Notes under the pieces: model-generated
Told to the model about the DNA's origin: nothing
The model's input: the letters and a program-made list of their open reading frames with translations, nothing else
Databases searched by the model: none
Part shown: piece by piece, positions 12,743-54,303 of the stretch
How positions within the stretch are numbered: position 1 is the stretch's first letter
How the letters are laid out: each line of letters starts with the position of its first letter
Made by a program: the position numbers and the translations under genes
DNA from: Thermoflexus sp.
GTDB taxonomy: Bacteria; Chloroflexota; Anaerolineae; Aggregatilineales; Aggregatilineaceae
Assembly: GCA_020724465.1 (NCBI GenBank)
Contig: DYGX01000004.1
Coordinates: 124,001-188,000 of the forward strand
Length of the DNA: 64,000 nucleotides
Reading direction: 5' to 3'

Positions 12743-14833
12743 TCACTCCCCCCACACCGGCAAGCGTGCCGGGTCGCACGCGCCGCCGTAGAGCGCCGCC
12801 TCGTCCAGATCGTCCGGCAGCCGCACCCACCCGCTGACCGTCTCGCCCGCCGCCGTCACGCCGATCACTGCCCGCCAGCGCGTGTCGGGGTCTGCCAGCC
12901 GCGCCCGGACCGCCGCCCACGCGGGCAGATCGTCGGCGCGCCGCCGGGATGCCTCGTCCGGCGCGGCATAGACGGGCAGGCGCAGCCCCGCCGGGCGCTC
13001 GATCACCAGGCAGGCCACCGGCTGTGCGTCGCGCGTCGCCTCAGCAGCGATCCACCTATCCTGCGTGGCGCGCAGCGCCGCGTTGTCCGCCTCCGCGTCC
13101 GCCAGCGCGGTCGCCAGTTGGGGCGCCAGCGCCGCCAAGGTCTCCGCCTGCGTCCGCGCCACACGCGTCGCCGCCTGCGCCGCGGGGTCAAGCGGCGTCG
13201 GCGTCGCGGTCGCCTGCGCCATGCGGTAAGCCTCCAGCCCGGCCACGCCCAGCCAGAACCCGACCGCCAGCGCCGCCAGCGCCACCCCGATCAGCGCCGG
13301 GATGGCCAGCGCCCGCCGCGTGGCGTCCGCGCTCGCCGGGCGCGGCGCGATCGTCACCGGGGCGCTCCACGCGCTCGCCGTGCGCTCGTCGTCCATCCCG
13401 CGCAGCGCCCGCACCTGGTAGCTCGCCGGACCGTCTGCGGCCGGACACGACGCCTCGCCGCTGAAGACCGACTCGCCCTGCTCCGGGTCGCGCCCCACAG
13501 GCGTCACGCGGATCTCATACGTGCGCGCGCCGGGGACGCGCTCCCACGCCAGCCGCCGCGCCGTGATCTCGCTAAAGACCGGCGTCGCCAGCCGGGTCGG
13601 GGCGCGGACCGGCTCGCTCCACACCGAGGGCATCCCCGGCGCGTACAGCGCATTGATCGCCCGCACCCGGAAATAGCGCCCCAGCGCCGTGTCGCCCGGC
13701 AGCGTAACTTCGGCCCGCTCGCCCCGATACACGACCGCGGCGTCGGGCGGCGCGAAGCCGTCCTCTGGCGCGGCCTCGACCTCGTACCCCGACGCCGCCG
13801 GGACCGGCGTCCAGCTCAGCCGCAGCGCGTCTTCGCGCGCCCAACGGATCGGCGCCAGCACGGGAACCGGCAGCGTCAGCGGCAGAGCCGCCACCGGCGC
13901 GCTCGGCGCCCCCCATGCCCCGCCGACCAGCGGCACGACCCGGTAATAGCGCGCTCCGTCCGGCGGCGGAGCGAAGCGATAGCTGACCTGGCGCCCGTCC
14001 GTCAACTCCGCCAGCAGGCTCGGCGCCCCGAAGTCCGGCGTCGGCGCTTCCTCGATCCGGTAGCCGGTCGCTTCAGCAAGCTGGTCCCAGGCCAGCTCGC
14101 AGGCCGCCGGCTCCACCCAGCGACAGCGCACCACAATCTGATCCCCGACGATCACGACCGGCTCGATCCACAGGTCGAACACGGCCAGGTCCCCGCGCGC
14201 GCCGTCGCTCAGCGCGTCCAGCGCCAGGCCGATTTCCGGCGTGGTCATCTCCGGCAGGTCAGGGATCAGCGAGGACGCGCTGCGGCTCAGCACCACCAGC
14301 CGCGCCGCGTCGTAGAGCGTGCCGCTGAAGCTGTGCAGCGCGGGCAGATCGCGCCCCGCGCCGGGCGTCCAGACGTCATCATCCTGCATCGAGGTGTCGA
14401 GCGCCAGCGGGCGGCCACGCGCTCCGAACAGGCACACCCCTTCCATGCCGAGCCACGCCAGCGCCATGCGGCCCCCAGACGGCGCGCGATCCAGGCGTCC
14501 GCAGGCGAACCGCACCGCGCCCGCCGGGGCGACTTCCCACTGCGGCGCGTCCGCCAGCCAGTCGTACAGCACGCCGGGCCATGCCGCGCTCCCCTCGCCG
14601 GGCTGCGTCCAGAGAAACTCTGCCACGCACTCGGCCAGAAACGCCGCCCCCTCGCCTTCGGCTATGGCAAAGGCCAGCCGCTCGGCGTCCTGCACTGCGT
14701 GGAACGCCGCCCGCGCCGAGGGGCTATCGTCTGCCCCACGGCGGTAGAACGCGCCCCACCGGCCGTGCGCGCTGCGTCCCCGGTCCTCGGACCGGGCATC
14801 GGGACCTACGATCGTGCGCTGGAGTGATGTCAT
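12743..14833 (-). CDS. Membrane protein: degenerate PP2C-like domain, FnIII repeats, C-terminal SH3-like domain
   Basis: 696 residues. Residues 1-220 follow the layout of a PP2C phosphatase (MALAWLGMEGVCLFGARGRP where the GDSR strand should be, and LYDAARLVVLSRSASSLIPD where the SDGL strand should be) but lack the metal-binding aspartates. Three FnIII-like segments follow (LAWDQLAEATGYRI, LSWTPVPAASGYEVE, LAWERVPGARTYEIR; about 240-515). Then come one transmembrane helix (ALIGVALAALAVGFWLGVAG), a helical stretch rich in Ala/Thr, and a C-terminal SH3-like domain (LRLPVYAAPDEASRR to WVRL). Orientation is probably N-inside. It heads a two-gene operon with the lipoprotein. A non-catalytic sensor or scaffold is inferred. 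Confidence 0.78.
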   Translation of the reverse strand: MTSLQRTIVGPDARSEDRGRSAHGRWGAFYRRGADDSPSARAAFHAVQDAERLAFAIAEGEGAAFLAECVAEFLWTQPGEGSAAWPGVLYDWLADAPQWEVAPAGAVRFACGRLDRAPSGGRMALAWLGMEGVCLFGARGRPLALDTSMQDDDVWTPGAGRDLPALHSFSGTLYDAARLVVLSRSASSLIPDLPEMTTPEIGLALDALSDGARGDLAVFDLWIEPVVIVGDQIVVRCRWVEPAACELAWDQLAEATGYRIEEAPTPDFGAPSLLAELTDGRQVSYRFAPPPDGARYYRVVPLVGGAWGAPSAPVAALPLTLPVPVLAPIRWAREDALRLSWTPVPAASGYEVEAAPEDGFAPPDAAVVYRGERAEVTLPGDTALGRYFRVRAINALYAPGMPSVWSEPVRAPTRLATPVFSEITARRLAWERVPGARTYEIRVTPVGRDPEQGESVFSGEASCPAADGPASYQVRALRGMDDERTASAWSAPVTIAPRPASADATRRALAIPALIGVALAALAVGFWLGVAGLEAYRMAQATATPTPLDPAAQAATRVARTQAETLAALAPQLATALADAEADNAALRATQDRWIAAEATRDAQPVACLVIERPAGLRLPVYAAPDEASRRRADDLPAWAAVRARLADPDTRWRAVIGVTAAGETVSGWVRLPDDLDEAALYGGACDPARLPVWGE

Positions 14834-14959: not shown

Positions 14960-15019
14960 CTCTCAAAAGCTCTCAAAATGCGTTTCCGATAGCTTTTGAG
15001 AGATCAACGCCTGTATAAA
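14960..15019 (+). promoter_or_regulatory. Promoter and operator region of the OB-fold gene pair
   Basis: A 12-bp perfect inverted repeat CTCTCAAAAGCT (14960-14971) / AGCTTTTGAGAG (14991-15002), plus an extra GCTCTCAAAA copy at 14969-14978. The right arm TTTTGAGAG is followed, after exactly 11 bp, by TATAAA (15014-15019). The same TTTTGAGAG-N11-(-10) order occurs upstream of the mevalonate operon at 54242-54217. Confidence 0.6.
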
Positions 15020-15107: not shown

Positions 15108-15302
15108 ATGGACATCACCCGTAACTGGCGCTTGAAGACGAGCCGCAGCCAGCTTCTGGCCGCCCGCCGTCCGGACGGCACGATCATTATCCCGCAGCAG
15201 TCAGGCCATCCCGCCCAGCCGCCCGAGGTCTTCTACTTCGAAGAGGCGCTGGCCGCCGCCCCGCTGGGTGCCAGCGAGGGCTACGCTCAGGCGGCGCGCT
15301 AA
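15108..15302 (+). CDS. Small protein resembling the N-terminus of DUF35 OB-fold proteins, without cysteines
   Basis: 64 residues. The opening TRNWRLKTSRSQLLAARRPDG matches the usual start of DUF35 (Zn-ribbon plus OB-fold) acyl-CoA-associated proteins, where a four-cysteine ribbon normally follows. Here the ribbon is replaced by TIIIPQQSGHPAQPPEVFYF with no cysteine at all. The next gene, 13 nt on in another frame, is the OB-fold half. Either an ancestral gene was split and lost its zinc site, or this is a separate small subunit. AGGTAGGGAGA lies before the ATG. Expected to act with the OB-fold protein. Confidence 0.7.
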   Translation: MDITRNWRLKTSRSQLLAARRPDGTIIIPQQSGHPAQPPEVFYFEEALAAAPLGASEGYAQAAR

Positions 15303-15315
15303 GGAGCCAGGCCCG

Positions 15316-15696
15316 ATGGCGCCAACGGTCGCAAGCGCCTACTATCAGGAGCTGGCGCATCAGCTCGCCTACTGGAATCAGTTCCGGCAGCCGCAGCCGC
15401 TTCCCGGCAAGGACGAGGTCGAGTTGTTCCCGCTCTCCGGCAAGGGGACCATCTACAGCTTCACCACGGTCACCGCGCCCGCCGAGGACTTCGAGCCATT
15501 CGCGCCCTATCCGCTGGCGTTGATCAAGCTCGACGAAGGCCCCCTCATCACCGCGCAGCTCACCGACCTGAGCGGCCCGGTTGAGATCGGCCAGCGCGTG
15601 GAGATGGTGATCCGCAAGCTGCGCACCGACGGCACGCGCGGCATCATCGTCTACGGGCCGAAGTTCCGCCCGCTGCTGCGCCCCGAGGCGAGTTAA
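15316..15696 (+). CDS. OB-fold (DUF35 C-terminal type) protein, acyl-CoA enzyme partner
   Basis: 126 residues from ATG at 15316 (AAGGAG 8-13 nt upstream). The core GTIYSFTTVTAPAEDFEPFAPYPLALIKLDEGPLITAQLTD to EMVIRKLRTDGTRGIIVYGPKF is the classical DUF35 OB-fold (PF01796). In archaea this family bridges acetoacetyl-CoA thiolase and HMG-CoA synthase and lets the intermediate pass between them. The N-terminal zinc ribbon is missing from this reading frame. The window also contains the matching enzymes as an operon (50.3-54.1 kb), whose promoter shares an element with this gene's promoter. A role as bridging subunit is inferred from family knowledge. Confidence 0.85.
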   Translation: MAPTVASAYYQELAHQLAYWNQFRQPQPLPGKDEVELFPLSGKGTIYSFTTVTAPAEDFEPFAPYPLALIKLDEGPLITAQLTDLSGPVEIGQRVEMVIRKLRTDGTRGIIVYGPKFRPLLRPEAS

Positions 15697-15857: not shown

Positions 15858-15887
15858 TTGCCGATCGCGCGCCCGCCGGATTATAAT
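15858..15887 (+). promoter_or_regulatory. Promoter of the octaheme cytochrome operon
   Basis: TTGCCG (15858-15863), 18-bp spacer, TATAAT (15882-15887). Start predicted near 15894, giving a short leader before the ATG at 15912. Confidence 0.65.
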
Positions 15888-15911
15888 CGACCAAAAAGAG
15901 AGCACGACCCG

Positions 15912-16331
15912 ATGCCAACCCTTGCTCGCTGGTACATCAAGGCCGGCCTGGTGTACTTTGTGCTGGCGCTGATCGCTGGCGTTCTCGTCCAGGCGCGCAC
16001 CGTCGTCGATCTCCCCACCTGGGTGGCGACTCTACGCCCCGTCTACGTCCATCTGCTCGCCGTCGGCTGGATCACGCAGCTCATCATCGGCGTGGGCTAC
16101 TGGATGTTCCCCAAGTTCAGCCGCGAAAACCCGCGCGGCAGCGAGCAGCTCGCCTGGGCGACCTTCATCCTGCTCAACGTCGGGCTGGCGCTGCGCGTCA
16201 TCAGCGAGCCGCGCGTCTCCATCCGCGCGGAGCCTGACCTCAGTTGGATGCTGGCGCTCTCCGCCGTCTTGCAGTTGATCGCGGGCTGGCTGTTCGTGAT
16301 CAACACCTGGGCGCGGATCAAGGAGCGTTAG
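15912..16331 (+). CDS. Half-size heme-copper-oxidase subunit I-like membrane protein
   Basis: 139 residues, about four helices. The segment PVYVHLLAVGWITQLIIGVG then YWMFPKFSRE and LAWATFILLNVGLALRV follows the pattern of transmembrane helices of cbb3-type/NorB-like subunit I (H-x-H/N..GW...GvaYymlPrf), but the protein is only about a third of the usual length and has a single candidate heme histidine (VHLLAVGW). The following gene is a paralogue. They precede an octaheme cytochrome in an operon, so a heme b or quinone-interacting membrane role is reasonable. Start ATG 15912 has a weak AGAGAG site; it is the first Met with the TM helix properly placed. Confidence 0.78.
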   Translation: MPTLARWYIKAGLVYFVLALIAGVLVQARTVVDLPTWVATLRPVYVHLLAVGWITQLIIGVGYWMFPKFSRENPRGSEQLAWATFILLNVGLALRVISEPRVSIRAEPDLSWMLALSAVLQLIAGWLFVINTWARIKER

Positions 16332-16333
16332 AG

Positions 16334-16747
16334 ATGCCGCCGCTCAGTGTGTGGATGGTGCGCGTCGCCCTGCTCCATCTGGGGATCGGCTTCACGTTCG
16401 GCGCGCTGATGCTGTTCGACAAAGCCGCCCCCACGCACCCGGACATCTGGCGGCTGTGGCCGCTCCATATCGAGCTGACGCTCATCGGCTGGACCGTCCA
16501 GCTGGCAATGGGCGTCGCGTTCTGGATCATGCCTCGCTTCGCCCGCCTGCCCAACCGCTACGGGCGCCGCACCACGCTGGCCTGGGCGGCGTTCGCCCTG
16601 CTCAACGCCGGCGTGCTGGCCGTCTGCGCGGGGAACTGGTGGCCGTCCCTGGCCGATCTGACGCTCGCCGGTCGTATCGCTGAATTAAGTGCTGTGATAT
16701 TATTCATCATACACCTGTGGCCGCGGATCAAACCGCCCGGTGCCTGA
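16334..16747 (+). CDS. Second half-size heme-copper-oxidase subunit I-like membrane protein
   Basis: 137 residues, four helices. PLHIELTLIGWTVQLAMGVA then FWIMPRFARL and LAWAAFALLNAGVLAV parallel the preceding protein almost motif for motif, so the pair arose by duplication. One conserved histidine (LHIELTLIGW). AGGAG 8 nt before the ATG; the start is only 2 nt after the previous stop, hence translational coupling. A 145-bp gap with no visible terminator follows before the octaheme gene. Confidence 0.78.
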   Translation: MPPLSVWMVRVALLHLGIGFTFGALMLFDKAAPTHPDIWRLWPLHIELTLIGWTVQLAMGVAFWIMPRFARLPNRYGRRTTLAWAAFALLNAGVLAVCAGNWWPSLADLTLAGRIAELSAVILFIIHLWPRIKPPGA

Positions 16748-16892
16748 TTGTGCGTATCGTTGCCCCGCCGGTCTCCCGTTGTGCTCGCTGACGAAAGGGG
16801 GTGTGCCGCTCGACACAGATTGCCGACGCGCTCTGCCTCAAAGAACAATGCTCGCCTGATTAGATTCCTCGAACCAAAAAAAGGGGGACTTA

Positions 16893-18302
16893 ATGACGGA
16901 CCATCTTAACACGCCGCCCAACCACACCCCTGGCTGGCTGACCGCTGGCCGTGTCCTGATCATCGGCCTGGTCGGCGTCATCATTGTCATCGGGCTGATC
17001 CTGATTGTGATGGCGATCGGCGACGAGCAGGCGCGCGAGCCAGATGTGCGTGTCGACGCGCTGGCCGGCAGCCGTAACGAATGCGTCACCTGCCACCGTC
17101 GGACCACCCCCGGCATCGTCGAGCAGTATGGGCGCAGCACGATGGCCGCCGCCGAAGTAAGCTGCGAGAATTGCCACGAGGTCCGCGCAGACTATCCCGG
17201 AGCCGTCGAGCACGAAGGGACCTATGTCCTGCGCACACCGACGACCGCCATGTGCGAAACCTGCCACACCGCCGAAGTCCGCCAGTTCTACCAGAGTCGC
17301 CACAGCATCCCCGCCTATGCCGCCATGGTCGGCCTCGAAGGGCTGACGGAAGATCAACTCGTGCGCTACAACGCCATCCCCGAAGCCGCCGTCAAGCCGA
17401 ACGAGCAGCGCAACGCGCTGTACCACATTGAAGGGCCGGACGTCACGCGCTTCGCCTGCGAAGCCTGCCACAACATCGGCGCCCCGGCCCCCGACGGCTC
17501 CATCGGCCAGTGTCAGAAATGCCACCTGCGCCACGAGTTCAGCCGCGAGCAGGCGCGCAAACCCGAAACCTGCAACGCCTGCCACATCGGCCCCGATCAC
17601 CCGCAGTGGGAGATCTACCAGGAATCGCCGCACGGCATCGCCTACATGACCATGGGCCATACCTGGAACTGGAACGCCGCCGCCGGCACGCTGACCGTCA
17701 ACGACTTCCCCGCCGCCACGTGCGCCATCTGCCACATGAGCGGCTTCGGCGCCACTGGCACCACGCACGATGTAGGCGACCGCCTGACCTGGTATCTCTT
17801 CCAGCCCATCAGCGAGCGCCGCCCCGGCTGGCAGGATAACAAGGCGCGCATGCTGAGCGTCTGCCAGGAGTGCCATAACGCCAACTTCCTGACGGACTTC
17901 TACGACGACGCCGACCGCCTCGTCGACGCGATCAACGCCTGGGTCGAGGAAAGCGACCGCATCATCCAGCCGCTCAAAGACAGCGGCCTGCTGACCGCCG
18001 AGCCGTTCGACGAGCCAATCGACTTCGTCCACTTCGAGCTGTGGCATCACTGGGGCCGCACCGCCAAGTTCGGCGCCTGGATGCAGGGACCCGACTATAC
18101 CCAGTGGCACGGCGCCTACGAGATGCTCGCCGACCTGGCCGAGCTGCGCGAAATGGCCGCCGCCAAGCTTGAAGCGGCCGGCCTTGAAGTGCCCGCGGAG
18201 CTGGGCGCGCCCGCCGGAGAAGCAGCCGGGCCGGACGAAGCGGGCGAGGCCGCCGATGACGCCGCCGAAGCGCCCGAAACACCGCCGCCGGCAGGGAGCT
18301 GA
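16893..18302 (+). CDS. Membrane-anchored octaheme cytochrome c, hydroxylamine oxidoreductase (HAO) family
   Basis: 469 residues. A single N-terminal helix (about 18-42, GRVLIIGLVGVIIVIGLILI) anchors it; the rest is extracytoplasmic. Exactly eight CXXCH heme sites are visible at about residues 64, 91, 121, 179, 197, 217, 267 and 314, with extra histidines (SRHSIP, ESPHGI, MGHTW, THDV) as in octaheme HAO-type enzymes, and a helical C-terminus ending in an acidic Ala/Pro tail. The family either oxidises hydroxylamine or reduces nitrite/hydroxylamine. Direction depends on a heme-crosslinking tyrosine that I cannot place without alignment. It shares an operon with two heme-copper-like proteins and an 8-helix protein under an FNR-type box, favouring anaerobic respiration. 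Confidence 0.92.
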   Translation: MTDHLNTPPNHTPGWLTAGRVLIIGLVGVIIVIGLILIVMAIGDEQAREPDVRVDALAGSRNECVTCHRRTTPGIVEQYGRSTMAAAEVSCENCHEVRADYPGAVEHEGTYVLRTPTTAMCETCHTAEVRQFYQSRHSIPAYAAMVGLEGLTEDQLVRYNAIPEAAVKPNEQRNALYHIEGPDVTRFACEACHNIGAPAPDGSIGQCQKCHLRHEFSREQARKPETCNACHIGPDHPQWEIYQESPHGIAYMTMGHTWNWNAAAGTLTVNDFPAATCAICHMSGFGATGTTHDVGDRLTWYLFQPISERRPGWQDNKARMLSVCQECHNANFLTDFYDDADRLVDAINAWVEESDRIIQPLKDSGLLTAEPFDEPIDFVHFELWHHWGRTAKFGAWMQGPDYTQWHGAYEMLADLAELREMAAAKLEAAGLEVPAELGAPAGEAAGPDEAGEAADDAAEAPETPPPAGS

Positions 18303-18304
18303 CG

Positions 18305-19228
18305 ATGTATCACCTGGCGACGCTTGCACCGCCGGTCGCGCGGTTCCGCTTGCCGTTCTCGCGCGATCAGTTGATGCTGCTGCTCGCAGCCGTCAACGAG
18401 ATCTTCCTGGGCATCGATATCTACCTGGCGCACAGCATCAGCGGGACCATTGTGCGCAATGAATGGATCCCGATCATCTACGGCCCTGTCGCCGGAGTCA
18501 TCCTGCTGTTCGCCGGGCTGATCGCGCTCAGGAATCGCCCGGCGGCGACTCTGCTGGCGACCGTCGTCCTGGTTGGCAGCATCGCCGTCGGCTTGCTGGG
18601 CGCCTACTTCCACCTCATCCGCGCCGCGCTGCCCACCGGCCCCGCTGGCGAGCGGCTCACCGTCCGCCTGCTCGTCTGGGGGCCGCCCGTTCTCGGCCCG
18701 CTGATGTTCTCGCTGGTGGGGCTGTCCGGGCTGAGCGCCGCCTGGGTCGAGGACCCGCCAGACAGCGGGCGTCTGCGGATGCCGGGCGGCCGCTACCTTA
18801 GGCTGCCCCTGAGCAAGACGCGCGCCTTCTTCCTGATGTTCAGCCTGGGGATGCTCTCGACCGTGCTTAGCTCCGTGCTGGACCACGCCCGCACCCAGTT
18901 TGAAAACCCCTGGCTGTGGCTGCCGACCGTCGTCGGCGTGTTCGCCACCATCATCGGCTTCTACATGGGCACGCTGGAGCGCCCGCACCGCTTCGACATC
19001 GCCGTTTTTGTCGCCACGGTCGGGCTGCTGATGCTCACCGGTGTGATCGGCACCATCTTGCACATCGACGACAGCCTGACCAGCCGGGGGCAGTTCGTCG
19101 CCGAGCGTTTTATCCGTGGCGCCCCGATCATGGCGCCGATGCTCTTCGCCAATATGGGCCTCTTCGGGCTGCTGATCCTGCTCGACCCGCGCTCCGAGGT
19201 GCTGCACCGGCAAGAGAAAGCAGCCTGA
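18305..19228 (+). CDS. Integral membrane protein of the octaheme operon
   Basis: 307 residues, about eight transmembrane helices (for example WIPIIYGPVAGVILLFAGLI, TLLATVVLVGSIAVGLLGAY, FLMFSLGMLSTVLSSVLDH, FDIAVFVATVGLLMLTGVIG). Histidines at helix ends (GAYFHLI, SVLDHART, GTILHIDD) could be heme ligands. No family recognised. The ATG is 2 nt after the octaheme stop, so the two are made together. It is a candidate electron-transfer membrane partner linking quinol to the cytochrome. A terminator follows. Confidence 0.8.
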   Translation: MYHLATLAPPVARFRLPFSRDQLMLLLAAVNEIFLGIDIYLAHSISGTIVRNEWIPIIYGPVAGVILLFAGLIALRNRPAATLLATVVLVGSIAVGLLGAYFHLIRAALPTGPAGERLTVRLLVWGPPVLGPLMFSLVGLSGLSAAWVEDPPDSGRLRMPGGRYLRLPLSKTRAFFLMFSLGMLSTVLSSVLDHARTQFENPWLWLPTVVGVFATIIGFYMGTLERPHRFDIAVFVATVGLLMLTGVIGTILHIDDSLTSRGQFVAERFIRGAPIMAPMLFANMGLFGLLILLDPRSEVLHRQEKAA

Positions 19229-50314: not shown

Positions 50315-51475
50315 CTAGCCGCCGACGGCCTCGAACACGTGCGCGACGGCCGTTCCGCCCAGGCCGCCCAGGTTGAGCGCCAGCGCCAGCCGCGCGCCGG
50401 GGACCTGGTTCTCACCCGCGTCGCCGCGCAGTTGGCGCGCGATCTCGACCGCCTGGTACACCCCCGTCGCGCCAAGCGGGTTGCCCCGCGCCTTCAGCCC
50501 GCCGAAGGTGCTGATCGGCAGTCGCCCGTCGCGGCCCAGCGCCCCCTCAGCGGCCAGCTTCCAGCCCTCGCCGCGCGGCGCGAAGCCCGCCGCCTCAAGC
50601 TGGAGCGCGGTCAGCACCGTGAAGCTGTCGTGCAGCTCGGCCAGGTCGATCGCGTCCGGCCCGATCCCGGCCCGCTCGTAGGCGCGTCCCGCCGCCAGGT
50701 TGACCGCCGTCAAAAACAGCAGATCGCGCCGGTTGTGCAGCGCCAGCGTGTCGGTCGCTGCCGCGCTGCCCCGCACCCGCACCGGATGCGGCACGCTGTC
50801 CAGCGCGCGCTCGGTGGTCGTCAGGATCACCGCCGCCGCGCCGTCGCCTTCGGGCGCGCTGTCGAACAGATTGACCGGGTCCGCCACCACCGGCGCCTTG
50901 GCGAACGCGCCGGGCCGCAGTTTATTGCGGTACATGGCGAAGGGGTTGGTCGAGCCGTTGGCGTGGGCGTTGATCGAGAAGCCCTCGAACTGCTCGAGCG
51001 CCACGCCGTGTTCGTACATGTAGCGCCGCATCAGCAGCGCCGCCAGCGCCGCCGGAGTCGCGCCCGGCCCTGCCTCGTAATCGGCGTCCAGCGCCGTTGT
51101 CAGGGCGGTATCGCGCTCGCTGCCGGTGCGGTCGGTCGCCTTCTCAACGCCGAGCACCAGCACGGTCTCCGCTGCTCCGCCGGCCACCATCAGGTACCCC
51201 TGGCGCAGCGCCAGCCCGCCGGACGCGTCCGCCGCCTCGACGCGCAGCGCCTCGACGCCGGCCATACCCACATAGTCCGCCACCAGCGCGCCCAGGTGGT
51301 TCTGCCCGCTGAGGTTGCCGCCCAGGGCGTTGGCGACGATCACCGCGTCCACCCGCTCGACTGCCGCGTCCTGGAGCGCCGCCTGCACCGCGCTCAGCGC
51401 GAGCTGGCGCAGGCCCATCTCCCAGTGCTCGCCGACGGGCGTCTGCCCGATTCCGATAATTGAAACGTCTCGCAT
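50315..51475 (-). CDS. Thiolase homologue of the mevalonate operon with substituted catalytic residues
   Basis: 386 residues from ATG at 51475 (GAGG 6 nt upstream). SCP2/archaeal acetoacetyl-CoA thiolase type, the kind that pairs with DUF35 and HMG-CoA synthase. Expected nucleophile motif VEAACASGG reads VEAADASGG (Asp codon at 51227-51229), and the expected GHPxGATG reads GNPLGATG. The other His motif, AELHDSFTVLTALQLEAAG, is kept. As written it should not catalyse the normal thiolase reaction; it may be a structural partner, a decarboxylase-like variant or a sequencing or annotation surprise. Last gene of the leftward operon HMGR, HMGS, thiolase. A canonical thiolase lies at 39313-40533. 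Confidence 0.9.
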   Translation of the reverse strand: MRDVSIIGIGQTPVGEHWEMGLRQLALSAVQAALQDAAVERVDAVIVANALGGNLSGQNHLGALVADYVGMAGVEALRVEAADASGGLALRQGYLMVAGGAAETVLVLGVEKATDRTGSERDTALTTALDADYEAGPGATPAALAALLMRRYMYEHGVALEQFEGFSINAHANGSTNPFAMYRNKLRPGAFAKAPVVADPVNLFDSAPEGDGAAAVILTTTERALDSVPHPVRVRGSAAATDTLALHNRRDLLFLTAVNLAAGRAYERAGIGPDAIDLAELHDSFTVLTALQLEAAGFAPRGEGWKLAAEGALGRDGRLPISTFGGLKARGNPLGATGVYQAVEIARQLRGDAGENQVPGARLALALNLGGLGGTAVAHVFEAVGG

Positions 51476-51500
51476 CGTGTGCCTCGTTTCCATGAGCCAG

Positions 51501-51640: not shown

Positions 51641-52729
51641 CTACTCCACCAACAGCTTGCCGCGATAGCGGGCATAGAGCGCGTAGTCGATCTCGACCCG
51701 CCGCGCGATGTAGTCTTGCGTGCGGGGCGCTTTGTCGCGCCGCCCGGCGATGTGCTCCGTCACCACCAGGTCGAAAGCGTCCGACCCCGCGCCGCTGCCA
51801 TAGCTGACCATCAGGATCCGGTCGCCCGGCTCGGCGATGTCCAGCGTGGCGGTCAGGCCCAGCAGCGACGACCCGGCATACACGTTGCCCACCACGCCCG
51901 ACAGCAGGCCCGGCTCAAGCTGCTCCGGCGCAAAACCGAGCAGGCTCCCCGCCCGCTGCGGGAACTTGACGTTCGGCTGGTGAAACACCGCGTAGCGGTA
52001 GTCCTGCGCCGTCGTGCCCAGCATCTCCATCAGCCGGCGCCCCGCGCTGACCGTGTGCTCGAAATAGGCCGGCTCGCCGGTGAAGCGGTCGCCGTGGCTG
52101 GGGTACGTCTCGTGCGCACGCCGCCAGAAGTCCGGCGTGTCGGTCACAAAGCTGTAGCTGCCCTGGATCACGGCCAGACTCTCCGCCGCCGGACCGAGCA
52201 AATAGGCCGCGCCGCCCGCCGCTGCGGTGTACTCCAGCGCGTCGCCGGGGCGGCCCTGCGCCGTGTCCATGCCGATCGCCAGCACGTACTGGGCCATGCC
52301 GCTGCCCACGAACCCGATCCCGGCCTGCATCGCTTCGGACCCGGCCTTGCAGGCGAACTCCCAATCCGCCGCCTGGATGTTGGGCGCCGCGCCAATGCTC
52401 TCCGCGACGATCGTTGAGGACGGCTTGACCGCGTAGGGGTGGCTTTCGCTGCCGACCCACACGGCGCGGATCAGACGGGGATCGATCCCGGCCCGCGCCA
52501 GCGCGTTCTGCGCCGCCTCGATCGCCATCGTGATCACGTCTTCATCTAGCCCGGCGACAGCCTTCTCTTTGATCGGCGTCCCGCCCGTGCCGCCGGTCCA
52601 CACCCGCGCCACTTCGGCGGCGGGCAGGCGGTACTGCGGCACATATGCGCCATACCCCACGATCCCGACCGGGCGATCCGGCTTGAGCACCGACTGCCCA
52701 ACCGCTAATGGACTTCCACCACTCGTCAT
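51641..52729 (-). CDS. Hydroxymethylglutaryl-CoA synthase, archaeal type
   Basis: 362 residues from ATG at 52729 (GGAGAAGG just upstream); ATG 52744 is an alternative. Condenses acetyl-CoA with acetoacetyl-CoA. Conserved Glu in [19 protein letters not shown], nucleophile Cys in [15 protein letters not shown], His in [15 protein letters not shown], and [35 protein letters not shown] at the C-terminus is the archaeal-type ending that contacts DUF35. Middle gene of the mevalonate operon. Confidence 0.95.
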
Positions 52730-52753
52730 CCTTCTCCACTCCATTTCACACGC

Positions 52754-52802: not shown

Positions 52803-54149
52803 CTATTCCCGGTTCCTGCTGGTCCGCATTTCCTGCAACAGGGCTTCCGCCCGCTGCGTCGAGATGCGCCCTTCGGCGACCATCCGGTTGGCGATCGCCT
52901 GCACCTCGCCGCCGGACGCCCCCGCCGCAATCGCGATCTGGCGGGCGTGCAGGCTCATGTGCCCGCGCTGGATGCCCTCGGTCGCCAGGGCGCGGATGGC
53001 TGCGAAGTTCTGCGCCAGGCCCACCGCCGCCATGATCTGCGCCAGTTCCTGCGCGCCGGGGTTGCCCAGCACCTTGAGCGCGGCGCGGGCTGCCGGATGC
53101 ACGCGCGTCGCCCCGCCGACCGTCCCGACCGCGACCGGCAGCTCAATCGCCCCCCGCAGATCGCCCGCCTCGTCGAGCGTCCACTCGGTCAGCGAGCGAT
53201 ACTGCCCGTCGCGGGCGGCCCAGGCGTGCGCCCCGGCTTCGAGCGCGCGCCAGTCGTTGCCGGTCGCGATCGCTAGCGCGTCCATTCCGTTCATGATGCC
53301 TTTGTTGTGCGTCGCGGCGCGGTACGGGTCAATCGCCGCGAAGACCGCGGCTTCCACAATCGCGCGCGCCACATCCGGCCCGGCCAGCGTCCCGGTTGCC
53401 AGCGCCCGCGCCGGGATAGTGCACGCTGCCCGCGCCTTGCGGCGGTCCGCCAGGTTGCTCAGGATGCGCAAGTTGACGCGCCCGCCGGTCAGCGCCTCGA
53501 TGCGTGGCGCCAGGCGCTCAACCGTGGTGTTGATCGCGTTGGCGCCCATCGCGTCGCGCACATCGAACAGCACATGCACGACCAGCATCGGTCCGGCCGG
53601 CGTCTCGGCAAACGGGCGCAGCTCCAGGCCGCGCGCCCCGCCGCCCAGCTCGACCAGCACCCGGTCGCAGCAGTCGGCCTCGGCCAGCAACTCCTCGCGC
53701 GCCGCGAGGACGCGCTCCGCCGCCGCATCGAGATCGGCCACATCCAGCACCTGGATCTGCCCGATCATCACCGGCTCGTCAGCCGAAGTCGCGAATCCGC
53801 CGCCCTCGCGCGCCAGCTTGGCCGCAAAGCTCACCCCCGCGACGACGCTCGGCTCTTCGACGGCCATCGGGATCAGATAGTCGCGCCCGTTGATCAGGAA
53901 GTTGGTCGCGATCCCCAGCGGCAGCGCGTAGACGCCGATCACGTTCTCGATCATGTGATCGGCCTGCTCGGCGGACAGCCCGCCGGGGCCTTCGAGCGCC
54001 GCCTGCTCGTCCGGCGTCAGCCCGGCCCACGCCGCGACGATCCGCGCGCGCTCCGCCCGGCTGTGCCGGTAGAAGCCTGGCAGCCGCGACGAGCCGCCCG
54101 ACTTGCCTGGCTGTCCTGTTGGTTGCTCGCCCGGATGGTCCGATGTCAT
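52803..54149 (-). CDS. Hydroxymethylglutaryl-CoA reductase, class II
   Basis: 448 residues. Reduces HMG-CoA to mevalonate, or runs in reverse in degradative members. Signatures: ENVIGVYALPLGIATNFLIN, IPMAVEEPSVVAGVSFAAKL, DAMGANAINTTVERLAPRI, THNKGIMNGMDALAIATGND (catalytic Lys), and GHMSLHARQIAIAAGA (catalytic His). Class II by the C-terminal His context and length. In Chloroflexota such enzymes serve isoprenoid synthesis, supported here by the adjacent HMG-CoA synthase. First gene of the operon; its promoter is at 54242-54217. Confidence 0.96.
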   Translation of the reverse strand: MTSDHPGEQPTGQPGKSGGSSRLPGFYRHSRAERARIVAAWAGLTPDEQAALEGPGGLSAEQADHMIENVIGVYALPLGIATNFLINGRDYLIPMAVEEPSVVAGVSFAAKLAREGGGFATSADEPVMIGQIQVLDVADLDAAAERVLAAREELLAEADCCDRVLVELGGGARGLELRPFAETPAGPMLVVHVLFDVRDAMGANAINTTVERLAPRIEALTGGRVNLRILSNLADRRKARAACTIPARALATGTLAGPDVARAIVEAAVFAAIDPYRAATHNKGIMNGMDALAIATGNDWRALEAGAHAWAARDGQYRSLTEWTLDEAGDLRGAIELPVAVGTVGGATRVHPAARAALKVLGNPGAQELAQIMAAVGLAQNFAAIRALATEGIQRGHMSLHARQIAIAAGASGGEVQAIANRMVAEGRISTQRAEALLQEMRTSRNRE

Positions 54150-54216: not shown

Positions 54217-54242
54217 AGTGTAGCAGCGATCGGCTCTCAAAA
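54217..54242 (-). promoter_or_regulatory. Promoter element of the mevalonate operon
   Basis: Minus strand: TTTTGAGAG (54242-54234), 11-bp gap, TACACT (54222-54217). The TTTTGAGAG-N11-(-10) arrangement is identical to that at 14994-15019 before the OB-fold gene. Start predicted near 54210, about 60 nt before the ATG. Confidence 0.55.
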
Positions 54243-54303
54243 CCTATCAGAGAGGCTTCCAATTGCTGCCAAGCCGCCGCCGCGCCGTCCGCCCTCCTGA
54301 TTC

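Follow-up and report, generated by a model that had tools for sequence, protein, structure and literature searches.

Genes and sequence elements in the window

The window analysed here is a 64-kb stretch of DNA, in which two unlinked sets of genes are preceded by copies of a common element (Table 1). One set consists of the genes for a 64-aa protein and a DUF35-type OB-fold protein, and the other is an operon for HMG-CoA reductase (HMGR), HMG-CoA synthase (HMGS) and acetoacetyl-CoA thiolase. The closest solved relative of the OB-fold protein is 6ESQ chain E, the DUF35 subunit of the archaeal thiolase/HMGS complex (PDB search, 6.1e-20), and homologues of all three subunits of this channelling complex are found in the window. 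The closest named relatives of the window HMGR belong to Chloroflexota, class Anaerolineae.

Table 1. Genes and promoter features of the two loci (coordinates of the window)
Feature	Coordinates	Strand	Details
Inverted second element copy, GAGAGCTTTTGAGAG	14960..14974	-	28 bp offset from proximal copy; no -10 of its own
Extra bare TTTTGAGAG, overlapping	14970..14978	-	direct repeat of the inverted site, 10 bp
Element copy proximal to OB promoter, 15-mer GATAGCTTTTGAGAG	14988..15002	+	5' of the 64-aa/OB-fold genes
OB-promoter -10 hexamer TATAAA	15014..15019	+	11 bp past element
64-aa protein related to the DUF35 rubredoxin-like zinc ribbon (zf-ChsH2), without Cys	15108..15302	+	
DUF35-type OB-fold protein	15316..15696	+	PF01796 OB_ChsH2_C, Pfam 3.9e-20
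Acetoacetyl-CoA thiolase, Thiolase_C_1 type	50315..51493	-	6ESQ chain A second-best PDB relative, 7e-77
HMG-CoA synthase, archaeal type	51641..52744	-	best solved relative 6ESQ chain I, 1.4e-127
HMG-CoA reductase	52803..54149	-	PF00368, 6.2e-112
Mevalonate-operon -10 hexamer TACACT	54217..54222	-	11 bp past element; upstream TGC gives an extended -10
Mevalonate-operon element copy, GATAGGTTTTGAGAG	54234..54248	-	5' of the operon

The four zinc-ribbon cysteines of the DUF35 subunit are absent from both the 64-aa and the OB-fold proteins of the window. The 64-aa protein is related to the zinc ribbon, stands alone as a separate polypeptide and has lost every cysteine. The same ribbon gene keeps the four cysteines (Pfam zf-ChsH2) in families f4, f6 and f7 and does not in f1, f2 and f8, and in one locus (L108) ribbon and OB fold are fused in a single 131-aa protein.

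Several neighbouring genes were also recorded. A 696-aa protein gene without Pfam match (12743-14833, minus strand) is divergent from the 64-aa/OB genes, and in other genera of the family relatives of it are likewise found near the OB genes. The region 15858-19228, past the OB gene, encodes two COX1-like membrane proteins, both short, and contains a gene for a multihaem cytochrome c (PF13447). At the other locus, a penicillin-amidase-like gene (PF01804, 54304-56907) is transcribed away from the mevalonate operon, with one intergenic region between the two, and this pairing is kept in three loci from other genomes of the family.

Four copies of the word TTTTGAGAG exist in the 64-kb window, at 14994-15002 (+), 54242-54234 (-), 14960-14968 (-) and 14970-14978 (-), while 0.12 copies are expected and none of 100 shuffles reached 4. 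As described in the first-pass annotation, the word is followed after exactly 11 bp by a -10-like hexamer before both gene sets. Its statement that the window contains no other copy holds for copies with a -10, but not for bare copies, two of which lie on the minus strand in the OB promoter. The 12-bp perfect inverted repeat reported at the first site (CTCTCAAAAGCT at 14960-14971 and AGCTTTTGAGAG at 14991-15002) is present, together with the extra copy beside it. When the two window sites are aligned, their identity runs on upstream as C-[CT]-GATAG-[CG]-TTTTGAGAG, with GATAG-N-TTTTGAGAG common to both. The shared word is real, but the element is 16 bp long and not 9: in its full form it reads YTGATAGNTTTTGASAG, then exactly 11 bp, then an often extended -10 hexamer TAtAnT.

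In the genome from which the window comes (4.4 Mb), the 15-mer GATAGNTTTTGAGAG with at most one mismatch is found only at 14960 (-), 14988 (+) and 54234 (-), namely in these two promoters. A genome-wide scan had been proposed as a check, with many unrelated matches counting against the idea, and few were detected; those with two mismatches have no convincing -10 at 11 bp. Within the family, the proximal copy keeps its position in many genera, and the OB-promoter -10 is gtGTATAAA or similar in most relatives.

Promoter anatomy and conservation

To describe the promoters, a profile was summarized from 108 HMGR/HMGS and 48 OB promoters. It reads YTGATAG-N-TTTTG-A-S-AG, followed by 11 bp of near-random sequence and then T-A-t-A-n-T. 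Within the site, GATAG-N5-GASAG forms a direct repeat whose two 5-bp half-sites recur with a period of 10 bp, equal to one helical turn; tandem direct repeats of about 10-11 bp period just 5' of the -10 are the arrangement of OmpR/PhoB-type class II sites. Counted from the -10, the element spans about -38 to -24, where a -35 hexamer would sit. The best -10 is spaced 11 bp from the element in 120 of 150 scored promoters and agrees with a sigma-70 -10, and in 65% of the HMGR/HMGS promoters a G two bases before it makes an extended -10. A sigma-70 -35 was not found in these promoters, as TTGACA-like hexamers at a spacer of 16-18 bp match at 1-3 of 6 bases, mostly 2 of 6.

Half-site peaks are located at 0 and +10, and also at -31/-21 (direct) or -28/-18 (inverted). 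A second upstream site is contained in 28 of 48 OB promoters vs 0 of 240 shuffles, and in 15 of 108 HMGR/HMGS promoters vs 2 of 540 shuffles. Among the 48 OB promoters, the inverted copy is offset by -28 in 12, by -29 in one and by -17 in 6, while the direct second site lies at -31. Between the inverted offsets -17 and -28 there is roughly one turn of the helix.

Conservation 5' of orthologous genes, suggested earlier as a check, was found in the family, the order and the class. Most of the 15-mer matches fetched from 61 genomes of the order sit before HMGR, HMGS or zinc-ribbon/OB genes. Across 81 genomes of the order, a looser half-site pattern, GRNAGNTTTTGNNAG-N11-TANANT, matches 37 times in 33 genomes and the reversed control 0 times, and all of the 34 matches examined precede genes of the same three kinds. 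In class Anaerolineae, the strict element with its -10 occurs at 68 places in 66 of 199 genomes, with 1 for the reversed control; these genome counts include close relatives and are not independent, and the matches span many families. At least 65 of the 68 places are directly before the HMGR/HMGS/thiolase operon or a DUF35 OB-fold gene. Judged by coordinates, 54 sit 46-279 bp 5' of HMGR in the correct orientation, and 11 further ones are HMGR, HMGS or OB promoters. One more is inverted within an OB promoter, one lies at a contig edge in a genome whose HMGR starts at another contig's edge, and one is unrelated (G200:C8).

HMGR homologue loci from named genomes (orthology assigned by tblastn) were also scored. 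Upstream scores of at least 10, all on the coding strand, were found in 66 of 78 loci vs 1.6% of the control windows taken from these loci, although the profile was built partly from these loci and some promoter coordinates are alignment starts instead of mapped starts. Since the profile is not independent of the loci it scored, the exact-pattern counts with reversed controls in the 199 and 81 genomes carry the argument. Among the 12 loci without a clear element, three are proteobacterial, and some are Chloroflexota loci with an HMGR that is possibly not the first gene of its operon. Outside Anaerolineae the matches are rare; two in genomes of the same phylum also precede HMGR, and Herpetosiphon HMGR genes (three loci) carry GAGAGGTTTTGRCAG, so the element may predate the class. 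Generally, the site is conserved 5' of orthologous genes above background and with near-zero controls, as expected for a transcription-factor regulon.

The distribution further indicates which genes the element tracks. In four loci of one genus and in one further genome, HMGR does not head the operon; there the unlinked HMGR has no site, while the HMGS operon has one. In three other genomes, the OB gene has a site and no HMGS or thiolase adjoins it in the fetched stretch. From these cases, the element follows the HMGS-thiolase-OB set and not HMGR itself, which is included mostly through operon membership. The first-pass annotation had suggested testing for matches before isoprenoid or acyl-CoA genes; they were found before the HMGS-thiolase-DUF35 set, but not for the whole isoprenoid pathway or acyl-CoA genes generally. 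A wider regulon was considered and rejected: the off-target strict matches that were examined appear fortuitous (G342, G455 and G200:C8, the last of which precedes a gene resembling branched-chain aminotransferases), and the two-mismatch matches in the window's own genome lack an aligned -10.

A putative common regulator and competing explanations

Almost every element with a -10 stands before HMGR/HMGS or DUF35 genes, which supports, much more strongly than the two window copies could, the co-regulation of the two unlinked gene sets put forward in the first-pass annotation. Judged from sequence comparison, the two sets are very probably under common control of one putative regulator, and we infer that a single protein would serve both promoters. 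The reading we prefer, and hold to be probable, is that the 16-bp element is the operator of one dedicated putative regulator, a class II activator controlling both targets. Through the putative operator, (Y)TGATAGNTTTTGASAG, this regulator would control the archaeal-type mevalonate pathway at its first committed steps; the targets are the HMGR/HMGS/thiolase operon together with the DUF35 OB-fold genes, which are unlinked to it. The activator is predicted to occupy the -35 region by binding in tandem to the 10-bp half-sites and to bring RNA polymerase to promoters of low intrinsic strength, by which the thiolase/HMGS/DUF35 complex would be switched on as one unit. The second, helically phased copy in most OB promoters would permit cooperative binding or a steeper response.

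The direction of control is the point on which the closest competing explanation differs. Here the regulon is the same, but a repressor would bind the element, block the -35 region and leave the DNA upon changes in isoprenoid intermediates or in the demand for them. The overlap of the site with the -35 position fits such a repressor, multiple inverted and direct copies as in the OB promoters are typical of operators, and the often extended -10 could support transcription without an activator. But no usable -35 remains for unassisted transcription, and the 11-bp spacing is kept class-wide, which suggests contact with RNA polymerase, while repressor sites usually drift. Activation is therefore favoured by the fixed spacing and the missing -35, and we consider a repressor unlikely.

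It is considerably less probable that an alternative sigma factor recognises the element as a long -35 region. The single orientation to the -10 and the fixed spacing in HMGR/HMGS promoters would agree with this. However, a site with about 13 near-invariant positions over 16 bp exceeds what a single sigma region 4 would read, the -10 has the ordinary sigma-70 form TAtAnT, and inverted copies without a -10 exist in many OB promoters. A sigma factor is thus disfavoured mainly by the length of the site and by the inverted copies.

Inheritance of the element by descent, through promoter duplication and without a shared regulator, is very improbable. Both targets have the element throughout the class, as this explanation would require, but the sites are near-invariant while their flanks are randomised, which requires ongoing selection by a binder, and the offsets of the second copies are discrete and phased, and vary from one family to another. 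Chance likeness of two short AT-rich words in a GC-rich genome, conceivable when only two copies with a -10 were at hand, can be dismissed with near certainty by the conservation before the same genes across the class and by the genome, order and class counts with near-zero reversed-pattern controls.

In order to find the regulator, OmpR-, XRE- and LuxR-type regulators were surveyed in reduced genomes and in the window's own genome, and no single candidate stood out. For example, a 1.2-Mb genome with the element (G101) contains one OmpR-type and four LuxR-type regulators, and reciprocal best hits gave no single orthologue group. Among the off-target matches with a -10 that were examined, none precedes a recognisable regulator gene, so autoregulation was not seen.

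A GAF-GAF-HisKA_3 histidine kinase gene is divergent beside HMGR, often adjacent to dnaA, in a number of loci (L105, L116, L123-L126, L129-L137 and other Anaerolineales). In three HMGR loci the kinase is adjoined, in two of them divergently, by a response-regulator receiver that consists of a single domain and has no DNA-binding domain. The kinase is a possible sensor for the regulon. Neither protein was retained as the regulator itself: they are not DNA-binding, and the kinase-HMGR pairing was not seen in the family of the window.

Relation to known systems

In the archaeal thiolase/HMGS complex of Methanothermococcus (6ESQ), DUF35 is described as having a scaffold role (PMC6996347, citing doi 10.1073/pnas.1718649115). 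The window HMGS and OB-fold protein have their best matches among the chains of this complex, and chain A is the second-best PDB relative of the thiolase. Differences from the archaeal system are that the genes here are bacterial, that the OB gene is unlinked, and that a separate Cys-less zinc-ribbon-like protein is encoded. The OB-fold genes are predicted to supply the third subunit of a thiolase-HMGS channelling complex, which would form in these bacteria as well. The element follows this set even when the reductase lies elsewhere, so regulation alone predicts a joint function of thiolase, HMG-CoA synthase and the unlinked OB-fold protein in Chloroflexota.

The archaeal-type mevalonate pathway is encoded by some Chloroflexota according to a 2026 review of bacterial isoprenoid pathways, and searching it for promoters and transcriptional regulation gave nothing (PMC13001223). 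The RegPrecise 3.0 paper describes a Chloroflexi regulon collection without mention of mevalonate or isoprenoid (PMC3840689); it concerns the same phylum and likewise infers regulons by comparative genomics. No published report of a mevalonate regulon in Chloroflexi was found in a search that covered few subscription journals, which does not by itself prove novelty. We know of no dedicated transcriptional regulator of the bacterial mevalonate pathway, and this search brought up none. The element may well mark the first pathway-specific transcriptional regulon for this pathway in bacteria, with a regulator new to any operator. The question is now concrete, namely which protein binds GATAGNTTTTGASAG and what the signal is, and the defined operator is a possible bait for purifying the regulator from cultured Anaerolineae or Herpetosiphon.

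The E. coli Pho box and CpxR box are OmpR/PhoB-type class II activator sites, and the Pho box has a period of 11. Like the element, they consist of a pair of short direct repeats that are joined by an A/T-rich linker, spaced by roughly one helical turn and placed about 10-11 bp 5' of the -10, where they replace the -35. In contrast with the Pho box, the period here is 10 bp, and the repeats are in the opposite sense on the coding strand. Although the architecture is like that of Pho, CpxR and CII sites, no regulator family is claimed by this analogy. Lambda CII-type sites, direct repeats of the form TTGC-N6-TTGC, likewise repeat every 10 bp and occupy the -35 region in promoters without a good -35, while their sequence and -10 distance differ from those of the Chloroflexota element, in which many second copies are inverted.
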